Assembly: GCF_900343125.1 (NCBI RefSeq)
Contig: NZ_OPYL01000002.1
Span: 62,001 to 126,000 of the forward strand
Reading direction: 5' to 3'
DNA: 64,000 bases
From: Dysgonomonas sp. Marseille-P4361
Lineage (GTDB): Bacteria; Bacteroidota; Bacteroidia; Bacteroidales; Dysgonomonadaceae
The notes under the pieces are model-generated. The model did not search any database. It was not told where the DNA came from and saw nothing but the letters and a program-made list of their open reading frames with translations. This document shows, in pieces, positions 44,656-60,693 of the stretch. Each line of letters starts with the position of its first letter. Within the stretch, counting starts at the first letter, position 1. Both the position numbers and the translations under genes were made by a program.

Positions 44656-45474
44656 ATGTTTGATATTCATATTTTAAATACGGGTTATTTTATGGCCGAT
44701 GGGGGTGCTATGTTTGGCGCCGTACCGAAAAAGGCCTGGCAACGGAAATATTCAGCCAATGCTGATAATTTATGTCCTTTAGTTATGCGTTGCGTTTTGG
44801 CTGTGTCCGATAAAAAGAAAATTTTAATTGATACCGGTTTAGGTGATAAGTATTTAGATAAAATAGCGTATTACCAACCTCACAAATTAGTCTCTATTCC
44901 CGAAGCTTTAGCTGAATTGGGATATACAACTGACGATATAACAGATGTGGTGCTAACCCATCTGCATTTCGACCATTGTGGCTATGCTACATATATCGAC
45001 AGCGAGAATAAACTTGTGCCTTCTTTCGCGAATGCAAAATATTGGTTGAGCGAAAAGCAGTGGAGAAATTACTTATTACCCAATCGTTTGGAGAGAGATG
45101 CAATATTTGAAGAGAATATTCTTCCAGTCTTCGAAGCTGGGCAGTTATTTTTTGTAGAGAATGATGCATCTATATACGACGGGTTTAGTTTGCGTCTCTT
45201 TAATGGACATAGCGAGGGACAGTTGGTGCCTTATATTGAAACGAAGAATGGAGTTTTTACTTTTCCGGGAGACGTTGTCCCTACAGCAGCTCATGTGTCT
45301 CTTGAGTGGATATCGGCTTATGATATTTCTGCAATAATATCGTTAAGGGAAAAAGAGAGGTTCTTATCCGAAGCACAAAAAGAAGGTTATACATTGGTCT
45401 ATTGTCACGACTCTAAAATAGAAACAAGTAAAGTAAAGACTCTGGGAGATAACTATAAAGCATTGAAGGTATAG
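44656..45474 (+). CDS. Metallo-beta-lactamase-fold hydrolase (lactonase-like)
   Basis: 272 residues. The zinc motif HLHFDHCG is His102, His104, Asp106, His107, with later His in FNGHSEGQLVP and Asp in TFPGDVVPTAAH; final His in YCHDSK. The start FDIHILNTGYFMADGGAMFGAVPKKAW resembles lactonase-like MBL proteins such as AiiA relatives, and no signal peptide is present. Substrate unknown; small-ester or lactone hydrolysis is likely from the family. It lies alone between the BlaI/M56 terminator and the XylR-type regulator. Confidence 0.93.
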   Translation: MFDIHILNTGYFMADGGAMFGAVPKKAWQRKYSANADNLCPLVMRCVLAVSDKKKILIDTGLGDKYLDKIAYYQPHKLVSIPEALAELGYTTDDITDVVLTHLHFDHCGYATYIDSENKLVPSFANAKYWLSEKQWRNYLLPNRLERDAIFEENILPVFEAGQLFFVENDASIYDGFSLRLFNGHSEGQLVPYIETKNGVFTFPGDVVPTAAHVSLEWISAYDISAIISLREKERFLSEAQKEGYTLVYCHDSKIETSKVKTLGDNYKALKV

Positions 45475-45600: not shown

Positions 45601-46770
45601 TTGGCGCGCGTAATTCTACTTACAGATTTTGGTGAAGAATATTCTAATAATCTTATGAAGGGTATTGTGCAATACTCTAGGGAGACAAGTCCATGGGTAC
45701 TCTGTAAAATGCCTCTTTCGTATAGAGATGTACATGGTATCGAAGGGGTGTTGAGATGGGCTAAAGAATGGAAAGCTGATGCTATTATCGGTCAATTCTA
45801 TAATACAGACAATGTAAGTCTGTTTAAGGAAGAAAACGTAATAGCGGTAGCTCAGGATTTTAAAGATCGCTTTACCAATATTCCTAATATAACCGGAAAT
45901 CATATTCGAGCAGGAGAAATAGGCGCAGAGCATTTTATTCAGAAAGGATTTAAGAACTATGCTTTTTTGGGAATAAAAAATGCAATATGGTCATCCGAAC
46001 GCTGCGAAGGGTTCAAAAAAGCTTTAAACAAAGTAGGGTTACTTCACAGTTTTTACGAATATCAGAAAGATGTTAGAGAAGAACTCTGGTATTATGAAGA
46101 AGACCTTGAAAAATGGTTGATAGAGCTACCAAAGCCTGTAGCTATAATGGCATGTGATGATAACCAAGCGCATCATATATCCGAAATATGCAAGTTACAT
46201 GATATTAAGATTCCGAGCGAAGTCTCTTTATTGGGAGTAGATAATGACCAAATGATATGCTTGTTATCCGATCCGCCTATTTCTTCAATAAATCAAAATA
46301 CAATAAAAGGAGGGTATCAGGTTGCAAACCTGATTGATAAATTAACCAATAACCCTCAATATAGATGGGCTAATATTGTTGTTGAGCCTACTTACATTAC
46401 TACGAGGGCATCTTCTAATATATTTTCAACCAATAATCCTCATATATCTATTGTTTTGCAATATATACATGAGAACATAAAATCTAAACTTTCGGTGCAA
46501 AGTCTGGTAAATCTTGTGCCTCTTTCGAGGCGTTCGTTAGAGCAATTGTTCAGAGAGGTTACAGGAGACTCTATTTATTCTTATATTTTAAAGTTGCGAA
46601 TCGAGAGATTCGCTTCAGAGCTGATAGAAACAGATAATCCCATTGTAGATATAGCTTTGGAACTGGGTTATATCGATTATAAAAATATCTCTCGCCAATT
46701 TAAATCATTAAAGGGGTGTACCCCTTCGGAATACCGAGAACAGAATCGAATTGACGTTTACGCAATTTGA
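45601..46770 (+). CDS. XylR/AraC-type transcriptional regulator with sugar-binding domain (TTG start)
   Basis: 389 residues: a LacI/periplasmic-binding-like N-terminal sensor (VILLTDFGEEYSNNLMKGIVQYS, then VAIMACDDNQAHHISEIC and SEVSLLGVDNDQMICLLSDPPISSI) and a C-terminal AraC domain with two helix-turn-helix units (LSVQSLVNLVPLSRRSLEQLF and IVDIALELGYIDYKNISRQF). The first in-frame start fitting the conserved opening is TTG at 45601; no ATG occurs upstream within the frame. XylR-type regulators respond to a sugar and activate catabolic genes. It lies 332 bases before the GH92 operon in the same orientation and is its probable regulator. Confidence 0.92.
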   Translation: MARVILLTDFGEEYSNNLMKGIVQYSRETSPWVLCKMPLSYRDVHGIEGVLRWAKEWKADAIIGQFYNTDNVSLFKEENVIAVAQDFKDRFTNIPNITGNHIRAGEIGAEHFIQKGFKNYAFLGIKNAIWSSERCEGFKKALNKVGLLHSFYEYQKDVREELWYYEEDLEKWLIELPKPVAIMACDDNQAHHISEICKLHDIKIPSEVSLLGVDNDQMICLLSDPPISSINQNTIKGGYQVANLIDKLTNNPQYRWANIVVEPTYITTRASSNIFSTNNPHISIVLQYIHENIKSKLSVQSLVNLVPLSRRSLEQLFREVTGDSIYSYILKLRIERFASELIETDNPIVDIALELGYIDYKNISRQFKSLKGCTPSEYREQNRIDVYAI

Positions 46771-47102: not shown

Positions 47103-50036
47103 ATGAAAGCTATCTTTTCTTCATTCATTTTGTTATTCGTTATCTTGACGAGTTGTTCTTCACCAGCTAAATCTCCGATCGACTATGTAGATCCATTTAT
47201 CGGTACAGGGTTTCATGGGCATACATATCCGGGAGCAACAGTTCCATATGGTGCAGTTCAATTAAGTCCTGATACCCGTACTGGAAACTGGGATGCGTGT
47301 TCGGGCTATCATTATAGCGATAGTACAATAATAGGCTTTTCTCACACTCACCTAAGTGGAACAGGGTGTGCCGATTTGGCGGATGTGCTTTTTCATCCTA
47401 CCACCAAAGAACTGAAATTAGAACCTAAAGGCTATATTTTCGAACCCTTAGCGTTTTCTCATAAAGACGAGAAAGCTTCTGCAGGTTACTATTCAGTCAA
47501 CTTTAGACAAGATGGCATAAAGGCAGAATTAACAGCAACTCAATATGCAGGAATACATCGATATACATTCGAAAAAGATAAAAACTCAAAAATAATAATC
47601 GATCACTCCCATTTGTTAGAAAATGAAGTGATCGATATGGCATCATTCAGCGTAAATGGTAAAACAGAAGTAAGCGGAATGCGTCGCACACAGGGGTGGG
47701 TTACGAATCAGTATGTTTATTTTGTTGCCCAATTCTCAAAAGAGTTTGAAAAAGCTCAATTGATAAATAACGGGAAGGAAATAAGCCTTGACGCAACTCC
47801 TGAGGCAGGAGGTAACTTGCAAATGGTATTAGATTTCGGAACTTCGGATGGTACACCTGTTATAGTAAAAGTTGGTATATCTATAGTAAGTGAAGAAAAT
47901 GCACGAGAAAACTTAAATAATGATGTAAAAGACTTCGATTTTGATGCAGTACATCAGAAAGCAAGAGATCTTTGGACAAAGGCTCTATCCGACATCGTGG
48001 TCGAAGGTGGAACAGAAGCTCAGTTGAAAAACTTCTATACTGCTCAATATCACACAAAAATAGTTCCTAACATAGCGAGCGATGTAAATGGTCAATACAG
48101 AAGACACGATATGTCTATCGGTAATTCTGATGCACCTCGATATTCTACATTGTCGTTGTGGGATACCTTCCGAGCATGGAATCCGTTAGTAACGCTAACA
48201 AATAAAGCTTTAGTTAATGATATGGTTAACTCTATGCTGGAAATGTATCAATACAGTGCAAAAAAAGAACTTCCAATATGGCCGCTATCGGCAGGAGAGA
48301 CCGGGACTATGATTGGTTACCACGCAGTATCTGTTATTGGCGATGCTTATATGAAAGGCATAAGAGACTATGACATAGAGTTAGCATTTGAGGCAATGAA
48401 ACGCTCTTCTAATATCAATGCCAAAGCATCTGATTACTATATAAAGTATGGTTTCATACCATCAAACATAAAAAGAGAATCAGTCTCTTGCCTGCTCGAA
48501 TATGCTTATGATGACTGGGTAATAGCACAAGTGGCTAAAGACCTGGGCAAAGAAGAAGACTATAAAGAATACATGAAAAGAGCCCACAACTACATCAATG
48601 TATTTGATGGAGCAACTAAGTTTTTCAGAGGAAAGCAAATGGACGGGAATTGGGAGCCTAATTTCAACCCGTTCGAACCGGCAAGAGCTTATACTGAAGC
48701 TACAGCATGGCAATATCGTTTCTTTGTACCTCACGACGTGAATGGCATGATTCAGCTTTTTGGAGGCAAGGATGCATTTATAGAAGAACTGGATAAACTA
48801 TTTACGGTAGAGCAAGGAGTAGACGGTGAAATGGTTGATATTACCGGACTTATCGGTCAGTATGCACATGGAAATGAACCTAGCCACCATATGGCATATC
48901 TTTACAACTATGTAGGTCAACCTTGGAAAACGCAAGAAATGACACGTCGTATTCTTGACGAAATGTATTCCCCAACGCCTGAAGGTATAATTGGAAACGA
49001 AGACTGTGGACAAATGTCGGCATGGTATATTCTTACCAGTTTGGGTATGTATCCTGTAGCTCCGGGTTCGAATGAATTCGCTTTGACTACACCTCTTTTC
49101 GAAAAAGCAACGTTCAATCTTACTAATGGAAAAGTGTTAGAAATAAAAGCAAACAATCCGGCAAAGAATATCTACATAGACAAAGTTATTCTGAATGGAA
49201 ATGAGATAAAAGAAAGCTTTATCAGTTACTATCAAATAATGGAAGGCGGATTGCTTGAATTCCAACTTTCGTCTACCCCTAACAAGGAGAGGGGGACAGA
49301 CGAATCCGCATATCCTCACTCTATGACCGAAGGAGAAGTTGTTTCTATTCCATATACAACGATCTACCTTAATCTGTTCGAGACGGAAATAAAGGTTGAT
49401 TTAGGTACAGCAACAGAGGGAGCCGAAATATATTATACGATCGATGGCACTGCTCCAAGCAAGAACACATTAAAATATGAGTCTCCATTTACTATCTCAA
49501 AAACAACAGACATTAAGGCAATTGCTTTTAAAGAAGGTTTTGTAGATAGTCGTATCTTCGAGATAAAAGCAACTAAGGCAGTTTATAAAAATTCGGCTAC
49601 TATTTCCGGACAGCAAAATGGAGTGAATTATACCTATCATCATGGCAAGTTTAGCAATGTAGCAGAACTTGCAGCTTCTAAAGTTGTGGAACAAGGTACA
49701 ATGTCCGAACCTGATATCAAAAATGCAAAACAGGAAGATCATTATGGATTTGTTTACACAGGTTATATTCACGTACCCGAAGACGGAGTATATGGCTTCC
49801 TTACTCAGTCTGATGACGGTAGCGTATTGTATGTAGCGGGAGAGAAGGTTGTAGATAATGATGGTTCGCATGCAGCCATTATATCTACAGGCGAAATAGC
49901 ACTCAAGGCAGGATATCATCCCTTCAAGCTTCTTTACTTCGAAGACTATGAAGGACAAGCCTTAGCTTGGAAGTGGAGACTGCCTAAGGCTCAGGAATTT
50001 GTTCAGATTCCTGTCGAAAACTTGTTTACTAAATAA
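47103..50036 (+). CDS. GH92 alpha-mannosidase with C-terminal PA14 module, lipoprotein
   Basis: 977 residues with lipobox LTSC (Cys18). The GH92 core (about 25-750) shows FIGTGFHGHTYPGATVPYGAVQLSPD, the general acid Glu532 in TEATAWQYRFFVPHD (Glu533 in BT3990), GNEPSHHMAYLYNY and the base region GNEDCGQMSAWY with Asp634. After it come a CHB_HEX/Fn3-like strand unit (YYTIDGTAPSKNTLKYESPF, about 760-815) and a PA14-like module (about 835-977, VPEDGVYGFLTQSDDGSVLY). GH92 enzymes are calcium-dependent exo-alpha-mannosidases. First gene of a six-gene operon; its PA14 module matches that of the metallophosphoesterase three genes later. Confidence 0.96.
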   Translation: MKAIFSSFILLFVILTSCSSPAKSPIDYVDPFIGTGFHGHTYPGATVPYGAVQLSPDTRTGNWDACSGYHYSDSTIIGFSHTHLSGTGCADLADVLFHPTTKELKLEPKGYIFEPLAFSHKDEKASAGYYSVNFRQDGIKAELTATQYAGIHRYTFEKDKNSKIIIDHSHLLENEVIDMASFSVNGKTEVSGMRRTQGWVTNQYVYFVAQFSKEFEKAQLINNGKEISLDATPEAGGNLQMVLDFGTSDGTPVIVKVGISIVSEENARENLNNDVKDFDFDAVHQKARDLWTKALSDIVVEGGTEAQLKNFYTAQYHTKIVPNIASDVNGQYRRHDMSIGNSDAPRYSTLSLWDTFRAWNPLVTLTNKALVNDMVNSMLEMYQYSAKKELPIWPLSAGETGTMIGYHAVSVIGDAYMKGIRDYDIELAFEAMKRSSNINAKASDYYIKYGFIPSNIKRESVSCLLEYAYDDWVIAQVAKDLGKEEDYKEYMKRAHNYINVFDGATKFFRGKQMDGNWEPNFNPFEPARAYTEATAWQYRFFVPHDVNGMIQLFGGKDAFIEELDKLFTVEQGVDGEMVDITGLIGQYAHGNEPSHHMAYLYNYVGQPWKTQEMTRRILDEMYSPTPEGIIGNEDCGQMSAWYILTSLGMYPVAPGSNEFALTTPLFEKATFNLTNGKVLEIKANNPAKNIYIDKVILNGNEIKESFISYYQIMEGGLLEFQLSSTPNKERGTDESAYPHSMTEGEVVSIPYTTIYLNLFETEIKVDLGTATEGAEIYYTIDGTAPSKNTLKYESPFTISKTTDIKAIAFKEGFVDSRIFEIKATKAVYKNSATISGQQNGVNYTYHHGKFSNVAELAASKVVEQGTMSEPDIKNAKQEDHYGFVYTGYIHVPEDGVYGFLTQSDDGSVLYVAGEKVVDNDGSHAAIISTGEIALKAGYHPFKLLYFEDYEGQALAWKWRLPKAQEFVQIPVENLFTK

Positions 50037-50051
50037 TTAAAATATACAACC

Positions 50052-50915
50052 ATGAAAAAAAGTATTTACATCTTTTTACTCTCTGTTTTATGTTTAGGAT
50101 TATTCTCATGTAAGGATAAACCGTTGGAACTAAATGTAATGAGTTTTAATGTACGATATGATAATCCGGAAGATAGCCTGAATAGCTGGTCTTACCGAAA
50201 AGATGTTGCAAGTCAAACTATATTGAATTACGATGCAGATATAGTTGGTACTCAAGAAGTATTATCGCATCAGCTGGCTGATCTGAAGGCAGCTCTTCCT
50301 GGTTATACAGCGGTTGGTGTCGGAAGAGAAGACGGTAAAGAAGCCGGAGAGTATAGTGCATTGTTATATAAAAAAGATCGCTTCAAAGAGGTAGAATCTG
50401 GAACTTTCTGGCTAAGCGAAACTCCCGAAGTCGCAGGCTCTAAAGGATGGGATGGAGCATGCGAACGTGTTGCAACCTGGGCATTCTTGGAAGAAATAGA
50501 AAGTGGTAAAAGATTCTTTTTTATTAATACACACTTAGATCATGTAGGGAAGCTAGCTCGAATCAATGGTGCAAAACTGATGCTTGAGAAAGCAACTGCA
50601 ATAGCTGGCGATCTTCCTATGATTCTGACTGGCGATTTTAACTCAGAGCCATCTTCAGATGTTGTTCAATACCTACTAAGCGAAACTTCTACAAAAGTAT
50701 TAGTAAGTGCAGGAGATCAGGCAAAAGAGAAAAAAGGAAATAAAGGGACATTCCATAGCTTTGGTAGAATTCCTTTAGAGAAAAGACCTTTGATTGATTA
50801 TATCTTTGTAAGCAAAGGAGCAGAGATTTTGAGTTATGAAGTAATAGACGATAAATTGAATGATGTTTTCATTTCAGATCATAACCCGCTTTTCAGTAAA
50901 ATCCAAATTAAATAA
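50052..50915 (+). CDS. EEP-family phosphatase/phosphodiesterase lipoprotein
   Basis: 287 residues with lipobox LFSC (Cys20). The endonuclease/exonuclease/phosphatase fold is complete: LNVMSFNVRYDNPED, VGTQEVLSHQ, FINTHLDHVG, MILTGDFNSEPSS, LIDYIFVS and FISDHNPLF. In exported Bacteroidota members the substrate is usually a phosphate mono- or diester on a sugar or lipid rather than DNA; EEP proteins also occur, to my recollection, in yeast-mannan loci of Bacteroides. It lies 15 bases after GH92 and 9 bases before the phosphodiesterase/alkaline-phosphatase fusion. Confidence 0.93.
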   Translation: MKKSIYIFLLSVLCLGLFSCKDKPLELNVMSFNVRYDNPEDSLNSWSYRKDVASQTILNYDADIVGTQEVLSHQLADLKAALPGYTAVGVGREDGKEAGEYSALLYKKDRFKEVESGTFWLSETPEVAGSKGWDGACERVATWAFLEEIESGKRFFFINTHLDHVGKLARINGAKLMLEKATAIAGDLPMILTGDFNSEPSSDVVQYLLSETSTKVLVSAGDQAKEKKGNKGTFHSFGRIPLEKRPLIDYIFVSKGAEILSYEVIDDKLNDVFISDHNPLFSKIQIK

Positions 50916-50924
50916 TATATACCG

Positions 50925-52901
50925 ATGAAAAAAAATATATTAAAAGGTATCAGTTTGATAGGATTCTTATTCCTTTCTTTCCAATTATTGGCACAAGAGA
51001 GAATATTGATTCACTCTCATAATGATTACCAAAGAAGAGTTCCTCTTTATCAAGCTTATTCACAACAATTATCTTCTATCGAAATTGATATTTATGAGCG
51101 AAACGGAGAATTAGTTGTTGCTCACGACCGTCATGAAGTAGCCACAGCAAAAACTATAGACGAACTTTACATCGAGCCTATCGTTGGATTCTTTAAAGAC
51201 AACGGAGGGAAACCTTGGGCCGATTCTGAGAATACCTTCTCTATTCTTGTGGATCTAAAAACACCTGCAAACCCAACATTGGATATATTGACCGAAAAGT
51301 TAGCAAAATATCAGGAAGTATTTAATGTGGAAAAGAATCCTTACGGAGTAAAGGTTATTATTTCAGGTAATAGACCAGATCCTAAAGATTTCCATAAATA
51401 TCCGTCATTTATTTATTTCGATGGAGATAAATTGGATTATACAGAAAAAGAATTAGAAAAAATTGCAATGATAAGCTTCTCTCTGAAAGAAAATGCTGAT
51501 TGGAATGGAAAAGGTATGTTCAAAAAACCACATCAAGAAAAAGTAGAAGCCTTGATAGAGGGAGTGCATAGACTAGGTAAACCAATCCGTTTTTGGGCAG
51601 CACCCGATGGTGTGAATGCTTGGAACAAATTGCATACAATGGGTGTGGACTACATCAATACCGATATGCCTGAGGCATGTGCTGACTTTTTTAGAAACTT
51701 TGCAAATAAAAATTATACGATAGCTGGGCATGATTCCGATTCGGATGATGAAACTCAACGTTACAAAAAGCTAGATAAAGTTACTGCTAACTTTGAAGGT
51801 TTTAAGAACAAAAAGTTACAGTTGAGTAAAACTATAGATATCTATCAGCCTACCTATAAGAACGATGGAAGTCAAAAGAAAGTAAAGAATGTAATCTTGC
51901 TTATAGGCGATGGTACCGGACTCAATCAATTGCAAGTAGCAGCTACAGCTAACAATCCGGGTTATAAAAATGGTCAAGGGCTTAGCATATTCAATATGAA
52001 ATATCTAGGTTTCCATAATACCAGCGCTCAAGATTCCTATACAACAGACTCCGCAGCAGGAGGTAGTGCTTTGGCTACTGGAGAACTTCACGACAATCGT
52101 CATATCAGTATGAGTAATACTGGCGAATCATACCCTTCTTTGACAGACTATATGTACAATGCAGGATATGCATGTGGTGTAATTACATTAGGAAATTTGG
52201 CAGATGCCACTCCTGCGGCTTTTTATGGTCATGCTACAGAGAGAGATGATTCTGATAAAATAACAGAGTATCTGTTGGAAGGAAAACTGACTTTGCTTAA
52301 TGGTTCAGGAATGAATGTGTTTACAAAAAGAGCAGATGGTAGAGACATTTTAAAAGAATTGGAAAATAAAGGATACCGTATAGCAACAGAAATAGATGAT
52401 ATTAACGATGATAATAAAAAGGTCATCTGTGTAGACGAATCTATGGAGTTAGCCGCAACAGAAGAATCATTGGAACTATTGGCCGAAGCAACCAAAGAAG
52501 GTATTGAAAAGTTGACTAAAACAAACAATAAAGGATTCTTCTTGATGGTAGAAGGAGCAAAAATAGACTATGCCGGACATGCTAACTCTCTTCCTGGATC
52601 TATCGTAGAAACCTTAAGTTTCGACTTGGCTGTAGCTGAAGCGCTTAAATTTGCAGACCAAAACGGAGAAACGCTTGTTATTGTTACAGGTGATCACGAA
52701 ACAGGAGGTTTAACACTTGTAGATGGTGATGTAAAAACCGGACACATTACAGCACGTTATATGACAGATGACCATACAGCTCAAATGCTACCAGTATTTG
52801 CTTATGGTCCGGGAGCTAGTGAATTTATCGGTGTTTATAAAAACACAGAGATCTTTCATAAAATAATGAAAGTAAAAGGTCTATCTAAAAATAAAAAATA
52901 G
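50925..52901 (+). CDS. Glycerophosphodiesterase/PI-PLC-like domain fused to alkaline phosphatase
   Basis: 658 residues, signal peptide cleaved near LLAQ (24). The N-terminal domain (about 25-260) has the GDPD-like site: His30 and His32 in LIHSHNDYQ, Glu53 and Asp55 in IEIDIYERNG, His67 in VVAHDRHE. The C-terminal domain (about 318-650) is alkaline phosphatase: Asp329 in LIGDGTG, nucleophile Ser376 in TTDSAAGGSALATG, metal ligands in VEGAKIDYAGHAN, VTGDHETGGLT and DDHTAQMLPVFAYG. One polypeptide could thus cleave a phosphodiester and then remove the phosphate. It sits in the GH92 operon, 3 bases before the next gene. Confidence 0.93.
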   Translation: MKKNILKGISLIGFLFLSFQLLAQERILIHSHNDYQRRVPLYQAYSQQLSSIEIDIYERNGELVVAHDRHEVATAKTIDELYIEPIVGFFKDNGGKPWADSENTFSILVDLKTPANPTLDILTEKLAKYQEVFNVEKNPYGVKVIISGNRPDPKDFHKYPSFIYFDGDKLDYTEKELEKIAMISFSLKENADWNGKGMFKKPHQEKVEALIEGVHRLGKPIRFWAAPDGVNAWNKLHTMGVDYINTDMPEACADFFRNFANKNYTIAGHDSDSDDETQRYKKLDKVTANFEGFKNKKLQLSKTIDIYQPTYKNDGSQKKVKNVILLIGDGTGLNQLQVAATANNPGYKNGQGLSIFNMKYLGFHNTSAQDSYTTDSAAGGSALATGELHDNRHISMSNTGESYPSLTDYMYNAGYACGVITLGNLADATPAAFYGHATERDDSDKITEYLLEGKLTLLNGSGMNVFTKRADGRDILKELENKGYRIATEIDDINDDNKKVICVDESMELAATEESLELLAEATKEGIEKLTKTNNKGFFLMVEGAKIDYAGHANSLPGSIVETLSFDLAVAEALKFADQNGETLVIVTGDHETGGLTLVDGDVKTGHITARYMTDDHTAQMLPVFAYGPGASEFIGVYKNTEIFHKIMKVKGLSKNKK

Positions 52902-52904
52902 AAA

Positions 52905-54401
52905 ATGAACAAGCTTTGCTATATATTCTTATTTGTTCTTTTACTGTTTGGAGTATCCTGCACGGATGTTTCAAAGACGGAGTCTCAATCTTCTTCTGCC
53001 ATTCTGAAATTTGACGATAAGGGAGAATTTAAAATAGCTCAATTTACCGACATTCATTGGGACGAATCAGCAACTAGTAATGACTCTACAAGAACGATAA
53101 TAAAAAATGTATTGGAAACTGAGAAACCCGATTTGGCTATATTAAGTGGAGATATTGTATGCTACGAGCCAGCTGAAGAAGGATGGTTGAGTATTGCAAA
53201 AATGTTTGGAGAGAAAAATATTCCATGGGTTGTTCTGATGGGAAATCATGATGAGGAGCAAGAGATGACTCGTCAGCAGATTGACTCCTTATTAGAACTT
53301 CAACCTAATTATTTGAAATTAGAGGATGTTTGTCATAAAAACGAAAGTGGCGATTTTTATTTGTTGGTGAAATCATCAGACAACAAAAAGAATGCAGCTT
53401 CCATATATTGTTTCAACTCTAATACTTATCCCGACAATACTTTGCTGTATGGCAAATATGACTGGATTCATTCCGATCAGATAGCATGGTACAGAGAGCA
53501 TAGCCTGGCTTTGACCAAGCAGAATGGAGAAGTACCTCTCCCTTCATTGGCGTATTTTCATATCCCTCTCCCAGAATACAATACTCTAATTGCTAAAGGA
53601 GATTTCTATGGAATGAATAGAGAAGGGCGTGCATCTTCTCCGGATATTAATTCGGGGTTATTCGCTTCTTTGATAGAGATGGGCGATGTGATGGCGACTT
53701 TTGTCGGTCACGATCATGATAATTGTTTCATCGGACAAATGAATGGAATCGGTCTTTCGTACGGACGTGTATCCGGGTTAAGGGCTTACGGAGACCTTGA
53801 AAGAGGTGCTCGTATCGTGAAACTTTATGAAGGGAAACGTCAATTCGATACATGGATCAGAACCAATTCAGGAAAATTTGAAATGTATTATTATCCATCG
53901 GGTATAACCAAAGCCGAAGAAGAATCGGCAAAGTATCTCGACCCAGTAGATCTTACCAATCCTAAACAAGGAGTAAGATATAAGTATTTCGAATACGAGG
54001 GGAAAATAATATCAGTAGAGGCATTGACTGACCCCAAAATAGCTACACTAAAGGAGGAGGGCATACTAAAAAACTTTTCTCTAGAGCCTGCTAAACGCAA
54101 AGACTATTTTGGTCTAGAATTCGAAGCTTATCTGAAAGTGCCTAAAGATGGTATCTATAACTTTTATACTTATACGGATGATGGATCGGTATTGTATATA
54201 GGCGATCAGTTGGTTGTCGATAATGACGGTTCTCATAGTGCTAAGTTGATGGAAGGAAAAGTTGGATTAAAAGCTGGATATCATAAAATAAGACTAAAAT
54301 ATTTTGAAAGCTACATGGGGGAACAAATCGAGGTTGGAATCTCTGGAAGAGATATACCGAGAACCATCATAGCTGACGATATGCTTTACATTGTTGAGTA
54401 A
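52905..54401 (+). CDS. Metallophosphoesterase with C-terminal PA14 module, lipoprotein
   Basis: 498 residues with lipobox GVSC (Cys19). The calcineurin-like site is full: QFTDIHWDE, AILSGDIVCY, LMGNHDEEQ, YFHIPLPEY and VGHDHDNCF. The C-terminal third (about 385-498) is a PA14-like module with VPKDGIYNFYTYTDDGSVLYIGDQLVVDNDGSHSA, closely similar to the module on the GH92 enzyme (DDGSVLY and VVDNDGSH shared). The module probably binds the same glycan, holding phosphoesterase and mannosidase on one substrate. Third phosphate-ester hydrolase of the operon. Confidence 0.93.
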   Translation: MNKLCYIFLFVLLLFGVSCTDVSKTESQSSSAILKFDDKGEFKIAQFTDIHWDESATSNDSTRTIIKNVLETEKPDLAILSGDIVCYEPAEEGWLSIAKMFGEKNIPWVVLMGNHDEEQEMTRQQIDSLLELQPNYLKLEDVCHKNESGDFYLLVKSSDNKKNAASIYCFNSNTYPDNTLLYGKYDWIHSDQIAWYREHSLALTKQNGEVPLPSLAYFHIPLPEYNTLIAKGDFYGMNREGRASSPDINSGLFASLIEMGDVMATFVGHDHDNCFIGQMNGIGLSYGRVSGLRAYGDLERGARIVKLYEGKRQFDTWIRTNSGKFEMYYYPSGITKAEEESAKYLDPVDLTNPKQGVRYKYFEYEGKIISVEALTDPKIATLKEEGILKNFSLEPAKRKDYFGLEFEAYLKVPKDGIYNFYTYTDDGSVLYIGDQLVVDNDGSHSAKLMEGKVGLKAGYHKIRLKYFESYMGEQIEVGISGRDIPRTIIADDMLYIVE

Positions 54402-54417
54402 TTTAAATTTTAAAAAT

Positions 54418-56034
54418 ATGACAAGATTTCAAAAAGGGTTATCATTAGCCGTATTTTTCATGCTGAGTTCTTTAAGTATGCTATTTGCACAAGAAAAAGA
54501 AGAACTTACTGTTTACAATTTGCCTTATAAAAACACGTATGTAAGGGAAGCTCTCGTAGCAGAGAATGAATATCGTGTAGCAAAGATGAAGTTTCAGGAA
54601 CCAAAAAGTTTCGACGAAGCTAAAAAGATTCTTCCTAGTCCGGTATGGGAAGGACACAGCAAAGAGATAGAAATGTACTGGAGAGCATGGCAAATTGCTA
54701 TTGGCAATATCAGACAGCCGCTCGAAGGTTCGGGTTTTGTAACTCCATACCTCGATACAGCCTACAACGGAAATATCTTTATGTGGGACTCTGCTTTCAT
54801 GATGATGTTTGCGCGTTATGGTTTCCGTTTCTTCCCTTTCCAAGAAACCTTGGATAACTTCTATGCAAAGCAGCATCCCGACGGTTTTATCTGCCGCGAG
54901 ATTATGCGCAATGGTGCAGACTGTTTCGAAAGATATGATCCAACTAGTACCGGTCCTAACCTTTTACCTTGGAGCGAAATGATGTACTTCAAGCAATATG
55001 GAGATATGGATCGTCTGCATAAGATTTTCCCTGTACTTTGTTCTTATTATAAGTGGTTGAAACTAAATCATACATGGCAAAACGGAACATACTGGTCGAG
55101 CGGATGGGGCACAGGTATGGATAACATGCCTCGTGTAAAACCAGAATACAATATGATCTATAGCCACGGACATATGACATGGTTGGATGCTAACCTTCAA
55201 CAAATATTTACGGCAAGTATATTGCTCGAGATGGGTTTTTATCTTGAAAGATGGCAAGAAATTGAAGATTTCGAAGATGAAATCAAATACCTTACTAAAT
55301 ATGTAAGAGAAAATATGTGGGACGAAGAAACAGGTTTCTTATACGATCAGTATGCGGATGGAAGTTTGTCTAAAACAAAAGGAATCATCGCTTACTGGTC
55401 TTTGTATACAGATGTTCTGAATCCGACACAATTGGATAGATTGGTGAAAGAATTAGATAATCCAAAAACATTCAATCGTCCTCACCGTGTGCCTTCTCTG
55501 TCTGCCGATAATTCGAAATACAACGAAAAAGGACGCTACTGGCAAGGTGGTGTATGGCCGGGAGCAAACTATATGGTTATCTCAGGATTGAACGAAAAAG
55601 GCTTTACTAAAAAAGCTCACGAGATAGCTGAAAATCATTATAAGAATGTATTTGAGGTTTACAAAGCTACAGGAACATTCTATGAATATTATGCACCGGA
55701 AGGAGCAGAAGCCGGATTTATGGCTCGTGACGAGTTTGTTGGTTGGGCTGGTCTTCCTCCTATTGCTGTGTTTATCGAATACATTTTGGGTATTAAATCA
55801 GATTTTTCTAAAAATACAGTTGTTTGGGATATTACAAAATTGGAGTCTCACGGAATAGATCGCTATCCTTTCGGACCAGAGGGTACTGTTGACTTCAGAG
55901 TAAACAAACGTAGCTCTGCGGAACAAGCTCCTAGTATAACAATAGACTCGAATGTTGATTTTGATTTAGTTATCAACTGGGGAGAAAAGAATACTAAAAC
56001 AATTAAAGTAAAAAAAGGAAAACAAACAATCTAA
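54418..56034 (+). CDS. Trehalase/GH63-like (alpha/alpha)6 glycoside hydrolase, exported
   Basis: 538 residues from the ATG at 54418; an in-frame TTG nine codons upstream lies inside the previous gene and is unlikely. The signal peptide is cleaved near MLFAQ. The barrel shows NGNIFMWDSAFMMMFARYGF, YWSSGWGTGMDNMPR, YSHGHMTWLDANLQQIF, YWQGGVWPGANYMVI and FYEYYAPEGAEAG, typical of GH63/GH37-type and MGH1-like enzymes acting on alpha-linked gluco- or mannosides. It lies 16 bases after the metallophosphoesterase gene. Exact linkage specificity cannot be read. Confidence 0.88.
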   Translation: MTRFQKGLSLAVFFMLSSLSMLFAQEKEELTVYNLPYKNTYVREALVAENEYRVAKMKFQEPKSFDEAKKILPSPVWEGHSKEIEMYWRAWQIAIGNIRQPLEGSGFVTPYLDTAYNGNIFMWDSAFMMMFARYGFRFFPFQETLDNFYAKQHPDGFICREIMRNGADCFERYDPTSTGPNLLPWSEMMYFKQYGDMDRLHKIFPVLCSYYKWLKLNHTWQNGTYWSSGWGTGMDNMPRVKPEYNMIYSHGHMTWLDANLQQIFTASILLEMGFYLERWQEIEDFEDEIKYLTKYVRENMWDEETGFLYDQYADGSLSKTKGIIAYWSLYTDVLNPTQLDRLVKELDNPKTFNRPHRVPSLSADNSKYNEKGRYWQGGVWPGANYMVISGLNEKGFTKKAHEIAENHYKNVFEVYKATGTFYEYYAPEGAEAGFMARDEFVGWAGLPPIAVFIEYILGIKSDFSKNTVVWDITKLESHGIDRYPFGPEGTVDFRVNKRSSAEQAPSITIDSNVDFDLVINWGEKNTKTIKVKKGKQTI

Positions 56035-56106
56035 TTCCTGTATTGGAAGAAGATACTTCAGTACAGAAATTAAAAAATTATAAAAGCGAATCAAAAAGAA
56101 CAATAT

Positions 56107-56931
56107 ATGAAGATTGGTATAGATATGGGTGGGACTAATATCAGAGTCGGTTTAGTCGATGGTGATGATATTGTCAAAAAAGTAGAGAAAGCTACACTTG
56201 CCCATAGGAGCGAGAAAGAGATTTTAGATGATCTTATAGCTGCAATAAAAGAGGCAATAACACCCGAGGTGAAAAGCATCGGAGTAGGCGTTCCGTCTGT
56301 TGTTGATATCAAGGCTGGTATTGTTTACAATGTTGCAAATATTGATTCATGGAAAGAAGTTCATCTGAAAGAGATACTAGAGACAGAATTTAAAATTCCG
56401 GTAGCAATTAATAACGATGCAAACTGTTTTGCACTTGGTGAACAAAAGCATGGTGAAGCTAAAGGAAGTTGCAATATGGTAGGTGTAACAATAGGAACCG
56501 GAGTAGGAGCAGGGCTTATACTTAACGGTCAGTTGTATTCGGGTACTAATACTGGAGCCGGGGAGATAGGCCACTTCCCATACCTTGACAAGAATGCCGA
56601 ATATTACTGTAGTGGACAGTTTTTCTCATGTGAACATAATGTAAAAGGACACGAAGTTGCGCGAAAAGCTGCTGAGGGTGATGCCGAAGCCTTAAAGCTG
56701 TTTAACGATTTTGGTAAGCATATAGGAAATCTGATGAAAACAGTTCTTTTTGCATATGACCCTGAGGTTATAGTTCTAGGTGGAAGTGTTTCTAAGGCTT
56801 ATCAATTCTTCTCGGAGGAGATGTATAATGTCATTAATACTTTTCCATACGAAAATACAGTTAAAAACCTGAAAATATTTGTATCCAAGAGAGAAGATAT
56901 TGGTATTTTGGGTGCTGCTGAATTGATCTGA
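56107..56931 (+). CDS. ROK-family sugar kinase
   Basis: 274 residues. ATP site IGIDMGGTNIRVGLVDG, sugar site INNDANCFALGE with GTGVGAGLILNGQLYSG, and GAGEIGHFPYL. The usual ROK zinc motif CxCGxxGCxE is altered to YYCSGQFFSCEH, as in a subgroup of Bacteroidota ROK kinases without the classical zinc site. It would phosphorylate the hexose (glucose or mannose) released by the extracellular enzymes of the operon. Last gene, 72 bases after the glycosidase, followed by a strong hairpin. Confidence 0.93.
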   Translation: MKIGIDMGGTNIRVGLVDGDDIVKKVEKATLAHRSEKEILDDLIAAIKEAITPEVKSIGVGVPSVVDIKAGIVYNVANIDSWKEVHLKEILETEFKIPVAINNDANCFALGEQKHGEAKGSCNMVGVTIGTGVGAGLILNGQLYSGTNTGAGEIGHFPYLDKNAEYYCSGQFFSCEHNVKGHEVARKAAEGDAEALKLFNDFGKHIGNLMKTVLFAYDPEVIVLGGSVSKAYQFFSEEMYNVINTFPYENTVKNLKIFVSKREDIGILGAAELI

Positions 56932-56964
56932 ATTGCGATAGCTTAGACTATCTAAATAAATAAG

Positions 56965-57012
56965 AAAGCTACTAACTAAGTCTGACAAAGCAGATAGTTA
57001 GTAGCTTTTTGT
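56965..57012. terminator. Hairpin terminator closing the GH92 operon
   Basis: AAAGCTACTAACTA and TAGTTAGTAGCTTT are perfect inverse complements with a 16-base loop, followed by TTGTTT. It also faces the end of the convergent AraC gene. Confidence 0.9.
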
Positions 57013-57040
57013 TTATTCAAAGAAAACAAATTCTTCTATC

Positions 57041-57913
57041 TTATTTAGCTTTTGAAAATTGCTCTCTAAAATGTGTCGGAGTGATTTGTTTGTATTTTTT
57101 GAAAGAACGATTATAATAAGGAATATCTCTGAATCCGGAGGCGAAACAAATTTCTGCGATCGATTTAGATGTATTCAGAAGCATTTCGCACGAAGAATCA
57201 ATTCTGTAGTTTCTTAGATAAGAAAAGAAAGAAGTACCAGTCTCTTTCTTGAAGAATACACAAAAGGAAGACCTCTCCATCCCTATGAACCTAGAAATCT
57301 CTTTAAGAGTGATATCGCGATGATAGTTATTCATTACATATAGATATATGTTCTGTAATGCCCTTGTTTGCTTATCCTCAACTATAGGATGCCCAACGAT
57401 ATTCGTCTCTTTATCTATAGAGGCTATTGTTTGAAATATCTGTAAGAGAGAAGATATCCGGTCCAATTGATTTTGTCGGGTCATGGATAGCATCAGATTC
57501 TTAAAGTTTTCAAGAACTTTGTCTGAAAAAGAAATTGCATTTTTGTTTTTTAGTATATCGTTTACCGTTTCTGCATATTCTGGAAATACAATTCTTAAAC
57601 CTTCTAATAGCTTATTGGAAAATATAATTGTGATATTTTCAATTTTGCCCTCTTCGTCATGAACAGATTTATCAAAAGTCCAGCAGTGTGGAATATTTGG
57701 AGGGATTAGGACAATTTCTCCTGCATCAAAATCCTCGACAGTATCACCTATCATCCTGGAGCCTTTTCCTGTAATAACATAAGACAGTTCCCATGAATCC
57801 TGTTGGTGAAGAGTTAACTGATTTTCGGCAACAATGTGTACATGGTCAAAGAAGAAAGAGATATTTTCCTTTTCGGGTCTCAGTGTAAATTTTATACTTC
57901 CCAGCTTGTTCAT
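57041..57913 (-). CDS. AraC-family regulator with cupin sensor
   Basis: 290 residues. A cupin domain (about 25-110: LHQQDSWELSYVITGKGSRMIGD, GEIVLIPPNIPHCW) precedes an AraC double helix-turn-helix (DITLKEISRFIGMERSSFCVFFKKETGTSF and SIAEICFASGFRDIPYYNRSFKKYKQITP). Such regulators sense a small sugar-like molecule and usually act on adjacent genes: here the convergent GH92 operon or the divergent acyltransferase and DUF1080 genes. Start at 57913 gives a normal cupin N-terminus. Confidence 0.93.
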   Translation of the reverse strand: MNKLGSIKFTLRPEKENISFFFDHVHIVAENQLTLHQQDSWELSYVITGKGSRMIGDTVEDFDAGEIVLIPPNIPHCWTFDKSVHDEEGKIENITIIFSNKLLEGLRIVFPEYAETVNDILKNKNAISFSDKVLENFKNLMLSMTRQNQLDRISSLLQIFQTIASIDKETNIVGHPIVEDKQTRALQNIYLYVMNNYHRDITLKEISRFIGMERSSFCVFFKKETGTSFFSYLRNYRIDSSCEMLLNTSKSIAEICFASGFRDIPYYNRSFKKYKQITPTHFREQFSKAK

Positions 57914-57988
57914 CTAATATTAATTTAAGGTGTAAATATAAGACAATTAAAATAAAATTTAAGACAATATTTCCTGTTTGATAACTCC

Positions 57989-57996
57989 TATTTTTG
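57989..57996 (+). promoter_or_regulatory. Promoter -7 element TATTTTTG of the acyltransferase gene
   Basis: Perfect TAnnTTTG. It lies downstream of an in-frame upstream start at 57978 and so supports the ATG at 58038 as the real start. Confidence 0.55.
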
Positions 57997-58037
57997 CAAT
58001 CTGGTCAACTAATTATAATATATTTGATAAAATAATA

Positions 58038-59180
58038 ATGAAACAAACAATAAGTTTAGCGGAGTCTAAGCCACATTACGAAATATTAGACGGATTGAGA
58101 GGTGTGGCTGCTGTACTAGTAGTTCTCTTTCATATATTTGAGGTGCATGCGGGTGGCGATCATTCGAAGCAACTGATAAATCACGGTTATCTGGCAGTAG
58201 ATTTTTTCTTTCTTCTTTCTGGATTTGTAATAAGTTATGCTTACGACGACCGTTGGGATAAGATGACATTAAAGGACTTTGCCAAACGACGTTTGATTCG
58301 TCTGCAACCAATGATTATTATCGGGTCTATTATCGGTGCAGCGCTATTTTATTTTCAAACTTCTCCCGGTCAAGGCTGGGGAGGTATACAGGATGTGCCG
58401 GTATGGAAGATGCTTTTGGTTATGGTGATTGGTTTTACTCTTATTCCCGTAGGCAGAGGATTGGATATTAGAGGGTGGGGCGAAATGCATCCTCTAAATG
58501 GACCGGCATGGTCTCTTTTTTTCGAGTATATTGCTAATATTGTTTATGCCCTTATATTACGCCATTTGTCAAAAATTCTGTTAGCAGTTTGTGTAATTAT
58601 AGCTGCAGGAGTTACAATCCATTTTGCTTTTACTAATCCTAATGGAGATATAATAGGAGGGTGGTCTATCAGCGATCCGTATCAGTTGCGTATCGGTTTT
58701 ACTCGATTAGCATTCCCTTTTTTGGCAGGAATGTTACTTGCCCGAGTGGGTAAGCTACGTCATATCCCAAAGGCTTTTCTTGTAGCAAGTCTCCTTCTTG
58801 TTGGATTACTCTCGGTACCTCGATTAGGGGGAATAGACAGTCAATGGATGAATAGCCTTTATGAATGTTTCTGCCTGATGATAATGTTTCCTTTCATCGT
58901 ATGGCTGGGAGCAGGAGGAAAGGTAAAGGGTGTTAAAGCTTCTAAGTTATGTAAGTTTTTAGGTGACATATCTTATCCTATCTATATCACTCATTTCCCT
59001 ATAGTGTATGTCTATATGGCTTGGGTTACAAACAACAACTATACGTTGGCAGAAACATGGCCATATGGTTTGTTGGTACTAGTTATATCTATTGTCGTAG
59101 CTTATGTTTCGATGAGGTTTTACGATATACCAGTAAGAACATGGTTGCAAAAACGTTTTTTGAAGAAAAAAGAAGGTTAA
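58038..59180 (+). CDS. Acyltransferase 3 family membrane protein (OafA-like)
   Basis: 380 residues from ATG 58038. About ten transmembrane helices. The first carries the catalytic-region His in GLRGVAAVLVVLFHIFEVHAG and DFFFLLSGFVISYAYDDRW; later NGPAWSLFFEYIANIVYAL and GDISYPIYITHFPIVYVYM are typical. These proteins acetylate sugars of polysaccharide or lipopolysaccharide at the inner membrane. It is divergent from the AraC regulator and 124 bases before the DUF1080 fusion gene on the same strand. Confidence 0.93.
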   Translation: MKQTISLAESKPHYEILDGLRGVAAVLVVLFHIFEVHAGGDHSKQLINHGYLAVDFFFLLSGFVISYAYDDRWDKMTLKDFAKRRLIRLQPMIIIGSIIGAALFYFQTSPGQGWGGIQDVPVWKMLLVMVIGFTLIPVGRGLDIRGWGEMHPLNGPAWSLFFEYIANIVYALILRHLSKILLAVCVIIAAGVTIHFAFTNPNGDIIGGWSISDPYQLRIGFTRLAFPFLAGMLLARVGKLRHIPKAFLVASLLLVGLLSVPRLGGIDSQWMNSLYECFCLMIMFPFIVWLGAGGKVKGVKASKLCKFLGDISYPIYITHFPIVYVYMAWVTNNNYTLAETWPYGLLVLVISIVVAYVSMRFYDIPVRTWLQKRFLKKKEG

Positions 59181-59304
59181 AATATTTAATAAAGCGTTAT
59201 ATTTGATAGTTAATGTTTTATATCAATAAATAAGGAGTGATATCGTTAACCTCATAAATCTTTTTTCGAATCGATTATAATTCTAATATAATAAAGCTTA
59301 GCTT

Positions 59305-60693
59305 ATGAAAAATGTTTTAACTGTGTTGATAACGATTTGTTTGTTGTCAATGTATTCATGTTCTGCTCCCCAAAGCGGTGACTTGTTTAACGGAGCCAGT
59401 CTTGATAATTGGAAGACTTCGGGTGATGTTGCGGTAGAAGATGGAGTCCTAGTTTTGAAAGGAAAAGAGTCATTGGCTCTTTTAAAAAGTGGAGGATATA
59501 AAGATTTTATCTTGAGTATGGAATTGCGTACTGTTGAGAAAGGAAAAGGAAGTATTGGCTTTCATACAGGGGCCGATGGTAAAGGATATGCTATAGCGCT
59601 TAATAATGATATGGCAGATCCGGTATGGTGGAGAATGACAGGAAGTTTGATGTCGGTACGCAATCTTACAAAAAGCTTTGTGAAGGATGGTGACTGGTTC
59701 AAGATGGATATTAAAGTAGAAGGGCAGGCTATAACAGTAATGATAAACGGAGAGCCGGTTGTTGAATATATCGAACCATCTAAGCCATTCAGAAATGATA
59801 TTAATGCAAGATCTGTTCTTTCGGAAGGTACATTTTCTCTTGTAAGTAGCGGAGAGGGTGCATTAGAATTCAAAAATATAGCAGTAGACGTTTTGGACAG
59901 AAAAGATATAGATATTGCAGCACAGTTGAGCAAAGCTCAAGATGAGCAAGCCGATCCTATTATCCGTCTACACCAAGATGATTTTCCTGTACTCGATTAT
60001 CATGTACACTTAAAAGGTGGATTAACTAAAGAAGGTGCAGCAGAACAATCTCGCAGGCTTGGTATCAATTATGTGATTGCTCCTAACTGTGGTATTGGTT
60101 TCCCAATTACTGACGATGCGGGTATTTACGACTTCCTTAAAACAATGCGTTCAGAACCTTTCATCTTAGCTATGCAGGGAGAAGGACGTGAGTGGGTTAC
60201 TACTTTCTCGAAAGAAGCAAGGGAAGAGTTTGACTTTGTGTTTACAGATGCTCTTACTTTCGATGACCGAAAAGGTCGCCGTGTTCGTTTGTGGATCAAC
60301 GATGAGGTTATTATCGACGATGAACAAAAATATATGGATCTGATTGTAGAAAAAACATGTGCAGTCCTACAAGAGCCCGCCGATGTGTTTGTAAATCCGT
60401 TTTTCTTACCCGAAGCTATGGTTGACCGTTATGACGAATTCTGGACAGAGGAGCGTATGAATAAGGTAATAGATGCTTTGGCTAAAAGCGGAAAAGCTTT
60501 GGAAATAAATGAGCTTTATGATATTCCTAACAAGGCGTTATTGATGAAAGCTAAAGAAGCAGGAGTGAAATTTACTTTCGGCTCAAATAATGTAACACCG
60601 GACGTTAGCGATCTGGCTTATAGCCTTCGTATGAAAGAAGAATGTGGTCTTACACCTCAGGATATGTACAAGCCTAAGATTAAGATAAATTGA
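59305..60693 (+). CDS. DUF1080 (LamG-like/3-keto-disaccharide hydrolase) domain fused to a metal-dependent hydrolase
   Basis: 462 residues with lipobox MYSC. Residues about 24-207 form a DUF1080 beta-sandwich (DLFNGASLDNWKTSGDVAVED, SMELRTVEKGKGSIGFHTGADG). Residues about 225-462 form a TIM-barrel-type hydrolase starting with His233-x-His235 (FPVLDYHVHLKGG), with later INELYDIPNKALLMKAKEAG and FTFGSNNVTPDVSDL, like amidohydrolase/PHP-type enzymes. DUF1080 usually stands alone; fusion to this hydrolase is unusual. It likely acts on a sugar derivative in the envelope. Cotranscription with the acyltransferase is possible; a hairpin follows. Confidence 0.85.
   Translation: MKNVLTVLITICLLSMYSCSAPQSGDLFNGASLDNWKTSGDVAVEDGVLVLKGKESLALLKSGGYKDFILSMELRTVEKGKGSIGFHTGADGKGYAIALNNDMADPVWWRMTGSLMSVRNLTKSFVKDGDWFKMDIKVEGQAITVMINGEPVVEYIEPSKPFRNDINARSVLSEGTFSLVSSGEGALEFKNIAVDVLDRKDIDIAAQLSKAQDEQADPIIRLHQDDFPVLDYHVHLKGGLTKEGAAEQSRRLGINYVIAPNCGIGFPITDDAGIYDFLKTMRSEPFILAMQGEGREWVTTFSKEAREEFDFVFTDALTFDDRKGRRVRLWINDEVIIDDEQKYMDLIVEKTCAVLQEPADVFVNPFFLPEAMVDRYDEFWTEERMNKVIDALAKSGKALEINELYDIPNKALLMKAKEAGVKFTFGSNNVTPDVSDLAYSLRMKEECGLTPQDMYKPKIKIN

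Follow-up and report, generated by a model that had tools for sequence, protein, structure and literature searches.

The six-gene operon described here lies in a 64,000-nucleotide stretch of the Dysgonomonas sp. Marseille-P4361 genome (contig NZ_OPYL01000002.1, positions 62,001 to 126,000; hereafter the window) and encodes, in order, a GH92 alpha-mannosidase, an EEP-family phosphatase, a fusion of a GDPD/PI-PLC-like domain with an alkaline phosphatase, a metallophosphoesterase (MPE), an MGH1-like glycosidase and a ROK-family sugar kinase. We favour, with about even confidence, the reading that the operon belongs to a split hybrid between a polysaccharide utilization locus (PUL) and a phosphate utilisation system (PUS) acting on phosphodiester-bearing mannose glycans, among which a phosphoinositol-mannose headgroup of the glycosylphosphatidylinositol (GPI) type would be the most likely substrate. 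The initial annotation had described a dedicated phospho-mannose system without a transporter of its own; the conserved set of mannose and phosphodiester genes bears out the first half of this description, whereas the absence of a transporter did not hold.

The fusion was searched for in 150 genomes, and a separate sample of the phylum comprised 395 genomes, the own genome being included in both. A near full-length fusion was present in 17 other genomes and a truncated copy in G080; G004, with a contig of 3.2 kb, was omitted, so that 17 loci were read (G021 and L003 are the same contig and were counted once). On the strand of the fusion, these loci carry SusC and SusD in 14 cases, MPE in 13, GH92 and MGH in 12 each, EEP in 11 and ROK in seven. 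The complete six-gene order of the window recurs in six of them (G003, G010, G020, G029, G054, and G058), and the conservation of gene order, which the initial annotation had named as a check on its proposal, was confirmed; such recurrence is more than chance. Two more distant genomes, G031 from another genus and G148 from another family, show the order SusC-SusD-GH92-EEP-alkaline phosphatase-MGH-GH125 without the fused domain, GH125 being an added gene in both. Additionally, G148 has an MPE and, ahead of SusC, a ROK homologue (47%), and the regulator beside its module is 51% identical to that of the window. In G031 and G060 the GDPD has a gene of its own. Ten of the 17 loci (G003, G010, G013, G015, G018, G019, G020, G029, G054, and G088) have genes for an extracytoplasmic function (ECF) sigma factor and FecR ahead of SusC, and G057 has FecR alone there, in a count that leaves out the stretch 5' of SusC in G021, G052, and G058. 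The fusion occurs without SusC-SusD in G046 and, as the truncated copy, in G080, and without either GH92 or SusC-SusD in G022. Between SusD and GH92, the G057 locus encodes a type I phosphodiesterase/nucleotide pyrophosphatase with a PA14 domain (L051:13599-15215), possibly an alternative diesterase.

The statement that the operon has no SusC-SusD pair is true inside the window only. The 14 related loci carry the pair upstream, within a single run of genes; in the own genome, the SusC of such a pair starts 8,196 bp downstream of the ROK gene, just past the right window edge, and a transporter-free locus was rejected on this linkage. Identity to the G088 pair, which precedes a Big_2/LamG gene, a GDPD-alkaline phosphatase gene and an MPE gene, is 53% for the own SusC and 60% for the own SusD. 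Queried with the G088 SusC, the own genome returned the copy on C4 (the contig carrying the window) as the clear best match at 1208 bits, followed by one at 454 bits, and the G010 SusD likewise matched C4 best (C4:130529-131938, 4.4e-35; next 1.6e-22). At E<=1e-60 the own SusD matches seven other genomes among the 150, and in all seven it forms a co-directional run with the fusion or an alkaline phosphatase, separated by 0 to 3 genes and at most ~6.3 kb (L045, L046, L038, L050, L086, L085, and L029); identities are 47-63% in five of these genomes and 32-33% in G003 and G020. Because the own SusD always joins phosphatase runs and the G088 SusC picks the C4 copy, the C4 pair is probably the cognate transporter, and the locus would be split rather than transporter-free. 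Carbohydrate-active enzymes (CAZymes), here GH92 and the MGH1-like/GH63-type glycosidase, and a co-localised SusC-SusD pair are two PUL features of the locus; in the own genome the pair would serve the operon from a distance.

The idea of a phosphoinositol or GPI substrate, raised in the initial annotation, gains support from PI-PLC genes of relatives. PI-PLC-X (PF00388) is rare, being found in 6 of the 150 and 12 of the 395 genomes, and four of these 18 genes lie in or beside the module, those of G021 and G060 within it and those of G359 and G413 convergent next to it. A rough binomial estimate for this association gave 4e-8 to 4e-5, with a distance picked after the data had been seen. Of 45 GDPD-like domains, 44 retain residues E53, H67, and D247, and the exception is G021, where a domain differing at these positions (L003:10001-11977) shares the locus with a PI-PLC gene (L003:4722-6935). 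The G021 PI-PLC resembles secreted bacterial PI-PLCs (1.2e-17) and keeps their His/Arg/His/Asp motifs, and it is possible that a true PI-PLC took over from the GDPD-like domain in this genome. In the window, the likeness to this class lies in the GDPD-like fold, which matches Ca-dependent PI-PLC; the own genome gave no PF00388 match. The PF00388 loci of G110, G116, G129, and G130 had no module neighbours. Among the 12 phylum genomes with PF00388, eight loci were inspected; the fusion lies ~12 kb off in G491, no module gene was seen beside PF00388 in G303, G483, G468, and G244, and G170 has only a SusC/FecR/sigma set. No GDPD-like domain lies beside the PF00388 gene of G241, G288, G352, and G529, a check that covered this domain and not lone phosphatases. 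The SusC-SusD run of G060 (L085, 9167-19901) encodes EEP, PI-PLC, GDPD, and alkaline phosphatase and no labelled glycosidase, and resembles a locus for the use of phosphoinositides. The EEP encoded there matches the PGAP2IP/CWH43 nuclease-like Pfam family (1.2e-7). A PGAP2IP/CWH43-type EEP was considered for the operon; PF23226 was matched only by this distant protein and by none of eight module EEPs, that of the window included.

The initial annotation counted three phosphate-ester hydrolases, which is correct for the proteins, while the phosphoesterase domains number four. The EEP matched the structures 3g6s (5.4e-72), 3mpr (1.6e-53), and 4c1r (1.2e-52), the last a solved mannosyl-6-phosphatase that presumably originates from a Bacteroides alpha-mannan/N-glycan type PUL. 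By sequence the EEP is in the same family as 4c1r, a kinship that supports a phosphate at mannose C6 of the putative substrate. In the fusion, residues 220-250 match the GDPD_2 motif with 26.5 bits when the whole protein is scored, against a cut-off of 27, and the domain by itself reaches 27.8 bits. The domain has a TIM barrel with two His and an E-x-D metal site, and Ca-dependent PI-PLC and GDPD match it equally, the fold being common to both; the 50 VIA rows comprise only alkaline phosphatases, GDPDs, PI-PLCs, and one glucanase and exclude nothing. The alkaline phosphatase part matches TAB5 alkaline phosphatase (2.3e-58) and carries the PhoA-type sequences TTDSAA, EGAKIDYAGH, and TGDHE, which we take to be the Ser nucleophile and metal ligand motifs. 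Three fusions of genus g80 (L165, L145, and L149) have the odd alkaline phosphatase motifs IPDG and EASQTDGGGH together with intact GDPD motifs. Residues D49, H51, D83, N114, H115, H269, and H271 of the MPE are invariant in 15 sequences, as are Asp244 and Glu432 of the MGH1-like enzyme (numbered from 54391) in 19 sequences; we read the latter two, from GH63 alignments, as the probable acid and base. The best solved matches of the ROK protein are a GlcNAc kinase, a hypothetical sugar kinase, and a glucokinase.

Both GH92 Pfam domains are present in the mannosidase, as in two-domain GH92 enzymes, and all 16 sequences compared keep its Glu532 and Asp634, which align with the acid and base region of 6f8z, 6f91, and 2wvx. 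An uncapping enzyme that has lost its catalytic acid, as CcMan5 reportedly has, was therefore ruled out by the retained Glu. The best structural matches were 6f8z (BT3130), followed by 6f91 (BT3965), and 7zgm, which we take as the alpha-1,3 enzyme of PMC9522356. BT3130 is strongly active on yeast mannan, and BT3965 is an alpha-1,4-mannosidase from a PUL of unknown function (PMC5930347). Ahead of its catalytic acid BT3965 has a short insertion holding Pro520 and Trp526, which the GH92 of the window lacks in a hand-counted alignment. In the alpha-1,2-mannosidase BT3990, a His584-Glu585 pair sits in the +1 subsite (PMC10167667). The GH92 of the window has Val578-Asp579 at this place, as counted by hand in pairwise alignments, and alpha-1,2 specificity was dropped on this weak ground.

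The core of the operon resembles, by architecture, PUSII of Flavobacterium johnsoniae, a SusCD cluster induced by phosphate (Pi) starvation, in which PusCD2 stands next to PhoA1, an alkaline phosphatase with an extra pf13653 (GDPD_2) domain; PUSI and PUSII are there set against CAZyme-bearing PULs (PMC8115612). Compared with PUSII, the system of the window adds GH92, EEP, MPE, MGH1-like, and ROK genes and an apparently sugar-sensing type of regulator, and its SusC-SusD pair is detached. SusC-SusD co-localised with phosphomono- and diesterases, as in a PUS, is found in the relatives and in the own genome only at 8.2 kb; in a PUS, however, phosphoesterases stand in place of CAZymes, and the operon differs from a PUS because it contains CAZymes. 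The GDPD-like domain is present in 44 of the 395 phylum genomes. Of 20 loci fetched, seven show a labelled SusC-SusD pair immediately ahead of the fusion, and sigma factor and FecR genes accompany five of these pairs; the other loci have SusC with an unlabelled gene, an intervening gene, or none. L155 and L169 are not phosphatase fusions. GH92 is nearby in only one of the 20 (L164, 29% identity). By this comparison the operon is best described as a core of PUSII type extended towards mannose. With the Bacteroides alpha-mannan and N-glycan PULs (GH92/GH76/GH125) it has in common GH92, an EEP of the mannosyl-6-phosphatase family and, in relatives, SusC-SusD (PMC5930347), whereas the window-type loci have several phosphodiesterase domains, PI-PLC in some relatives, and no GH76 match within 20 kb of a fusion copy, the nearest being ~22 kb away in G022.

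This distance from GH76 also bears on yeast or fungal phosphomannan, from which the operon might remove Man-alpha-1-P-6-Man caps while mannan enzymes encoded elsewhere finish the degradation. The match of the EEP to a mannosyl-6-phosphatase and the closeness of the GH92 to BT3130 fit this reading, and three GH76 and two GH125 matches elsewhere in the own genome keep yeast phosphomannan, one of the substrates suggested in the initial annotation, in play. It is weakened by four module carriers, G021 (82% complete), G031, G060, and G148, that gave no GH76 match, by the retained catalytic acid of the GH92, and by the PI-PLC association and the MGH1-like enzyme, which it leaves unexplained, and we consider it unlikely. 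An equally unlikely account holds that the locus is a Pi-starvation system after phosphodiester phosphorus, to which the sugar enzymes are accessory. The PUSII architecture with its induction by Pi depletion (PMC8115612) and the seven phylum loci with SusC-SusD directly before the fusion and without sugar enzymes speak for phosphorus scavenging; the putative sugar-sensing regulator here and in G148, the ECF sigma factor and FecR genes beside SusC, and the synteny of GH92, MGH, and in part ROK would speak against it. Far less probable still are glycerophosphate glycans or teichoic-type polymers, from which the GDPD would free glycerol phosphate before phosphatases and glycosidases finish: the glycosidase family is named after mannosylglycerate hydrolase and GDPDs match the N-terminal domain well, yet this reading accounts neither for the mannose enzymes nor for an EEP of mannosyl-6-phosphatase type or the neighbouring PI-PLC genes.

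Several observations also weigh against a phosphoinositol-mannose substrate. GH92 is missing from the stretches seen at G060, G088, G046, G022, and G052 (the last a 6.5 kb contig; the G101 contig is too short to judge), and mannose is therefore not essential to the core. Most carriers of the GH92 type have a SusC-SusD type other than the own pair, as only seven relatives reach 1e-60, and the G010 SusC ranks two SusCs on C11 (40 and 37%) above the C4 copy. The replacement by PI-PLC is a case from a single genome; the PI-PLC of G413 and G359 is encoded convergently, outside the operon, and is accompanied by intact GDPD motifs. GDPDs match the N-terminal domain of the fusion at least as well as PI-PLCs do, the predicted structure of the fusion is poor overall (mean pLDDT 51), and no inositol-handling gene or glucosaminidase was identified within the operon. 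With Val-Asp at the His-Glu place, the linkage preference of the GH92 is not fixed by sequence. The core is induced by Pi starvation in Flavobacterium (PMC8115612). Finally, a scan for a Bacteroides-type TTTG/TAnnTTTG promoter found none between the regulator and GH92, which is adverse or neutral.

Under the split PUL/PUS reading, the SusC-SusD pair outside the window would capture and import the phospho-oligosaccharide, and the GDPD/PI-PLC-like domain and the MPE would cleave its phosphodiesters, the fused alkaline phosphatase and the EEP stripping the leftover phosphates. GH92 would trim mannose, assisted by GH125 in G031 and G148, the MGH1-like enzyme might split the final sugar off a polyol, for instance inositol, and the ROK kinase would phosphorylate the hexose. 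The sugar-sensing type of regulator may control the locus, a role that would fall to ECF sigma/FecR in many relatives. A narrower version, in which the locus is strictly dedicated to GPI and combines the PUSII core with a mannose-6-phosphatase, mannosidases, and a sugar-inositol hydrolase, the GDPD-like domain having a PI-PLC role that was replaced in one lineage, is tentative and less probable than the broader one.

The coordinates are given in Table 1. Six same-strand genes with gaps of 15, 9, 3, 16, and 72 bases and a hairpin at the end, as reported in the initial annotation, were confirmed by the coordinates and by RNA folding. A mechanical list of open reading frames starts the MGH1-like gene at a TTG (54391) that overlaps the preceding stop codon; ATG 54418 is the most likely start because it yields the 16-base gap. 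A consensus scan found no terminator between the operon genes and also missed the terminal hairpin; it returned seven terminator sites against 6.7 expected by chance, and neither promoter- nor terminator-like sites exceeded the chance level. The regulator gene, which we label XylR-like by assumption, ends 332 bp 5' of the operon, and just 5' of it the protein encoded at 44656-45474 has a sub-cut-off match to the YtnP lactonase model (180.7 of 425 bits). Between the ROK gene and SusC-SusD lie genes for an AraC regulator (-), an acyltransferase type (+), and a 3-keto-disaccharide hydrolase domain with a PHP-like part (+) at 57041-60693, and a second GH92, with LamG, on the opposite strand (61406-64000, continuing to C4:126633).

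Table 1. Features of the operon, its regulator, and the SusC-SusD pair. Positions are those of the window unless preceded by C4.
Feature	Position	Strand	Evidence
LacI-type sugar-binding domain + AraC HTH regulator	45601..46770	+	Pfam Peripla_BP_3 9e-28, HTH_18 6.5e-20
GH92 alpha-mannosidase + Fn3-assoc/CHB_HEX + PA14	47103..50036	+	Pfam GH92 3.4e-174, PA14 1.3e-17; lipoprotein-type signal (read from protein start)
EEP-family phosphatase	50052..50915	+	Pfam PF22669 1.9e-7; lipoprotein-type signal (read from start)
Fusion of GDPD/PI-PLC-like domain (~residues 26-265) and PhoA-type alkaline phosphatase (~311-653)	50925..52901	+	cleavable-type signal (read from start)
Calcineurin-like metallophosphoesterase + PA14	52905..54401	+	Pfam Metallophos 1.7e-15, PA14 5.4e-15; lipoprotein-type signal (read from start)
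MGH1-like/GH63-type glycosidase	54418..56034	+	PF22422 4.4e-33, GH63 3.4e-11; cleavable-type signal (read from start)
ROK-family sugar kinase	56107..56931	+	PF00480 1e-50; no signal peptide seen
Terminal hairpin with T-run	56955..57017	+	RNA fold of 56932-57040, -32.8 kcal/mol
SusC	C4:127128-130412		stretch C4:124000-143900
SusD	C4:130433-132097		stretch C4:124000-143900
Big_2/LamG protein	C4:132132-133118		third of the SusC-SusD-LamG trio

The gene set is real, conserved, and informative, and the chemistry proposed for it in the initial annotation is plausible. Cells of the host, the diet, fungi, and protozoa display GPI and phosphoinositol-mannose structures. Among the matches listed from the open-licence literature, titles and the beginnings of abstracts described no bacterial locus consuming such structures, which is a weak negative. 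In conclusion, the locus combines the concept of a phosphate utilisation system with that of a glycan PUL, both already described, and its named genes and residues, together with a candidate natural replacement, make the substrate directly testable.

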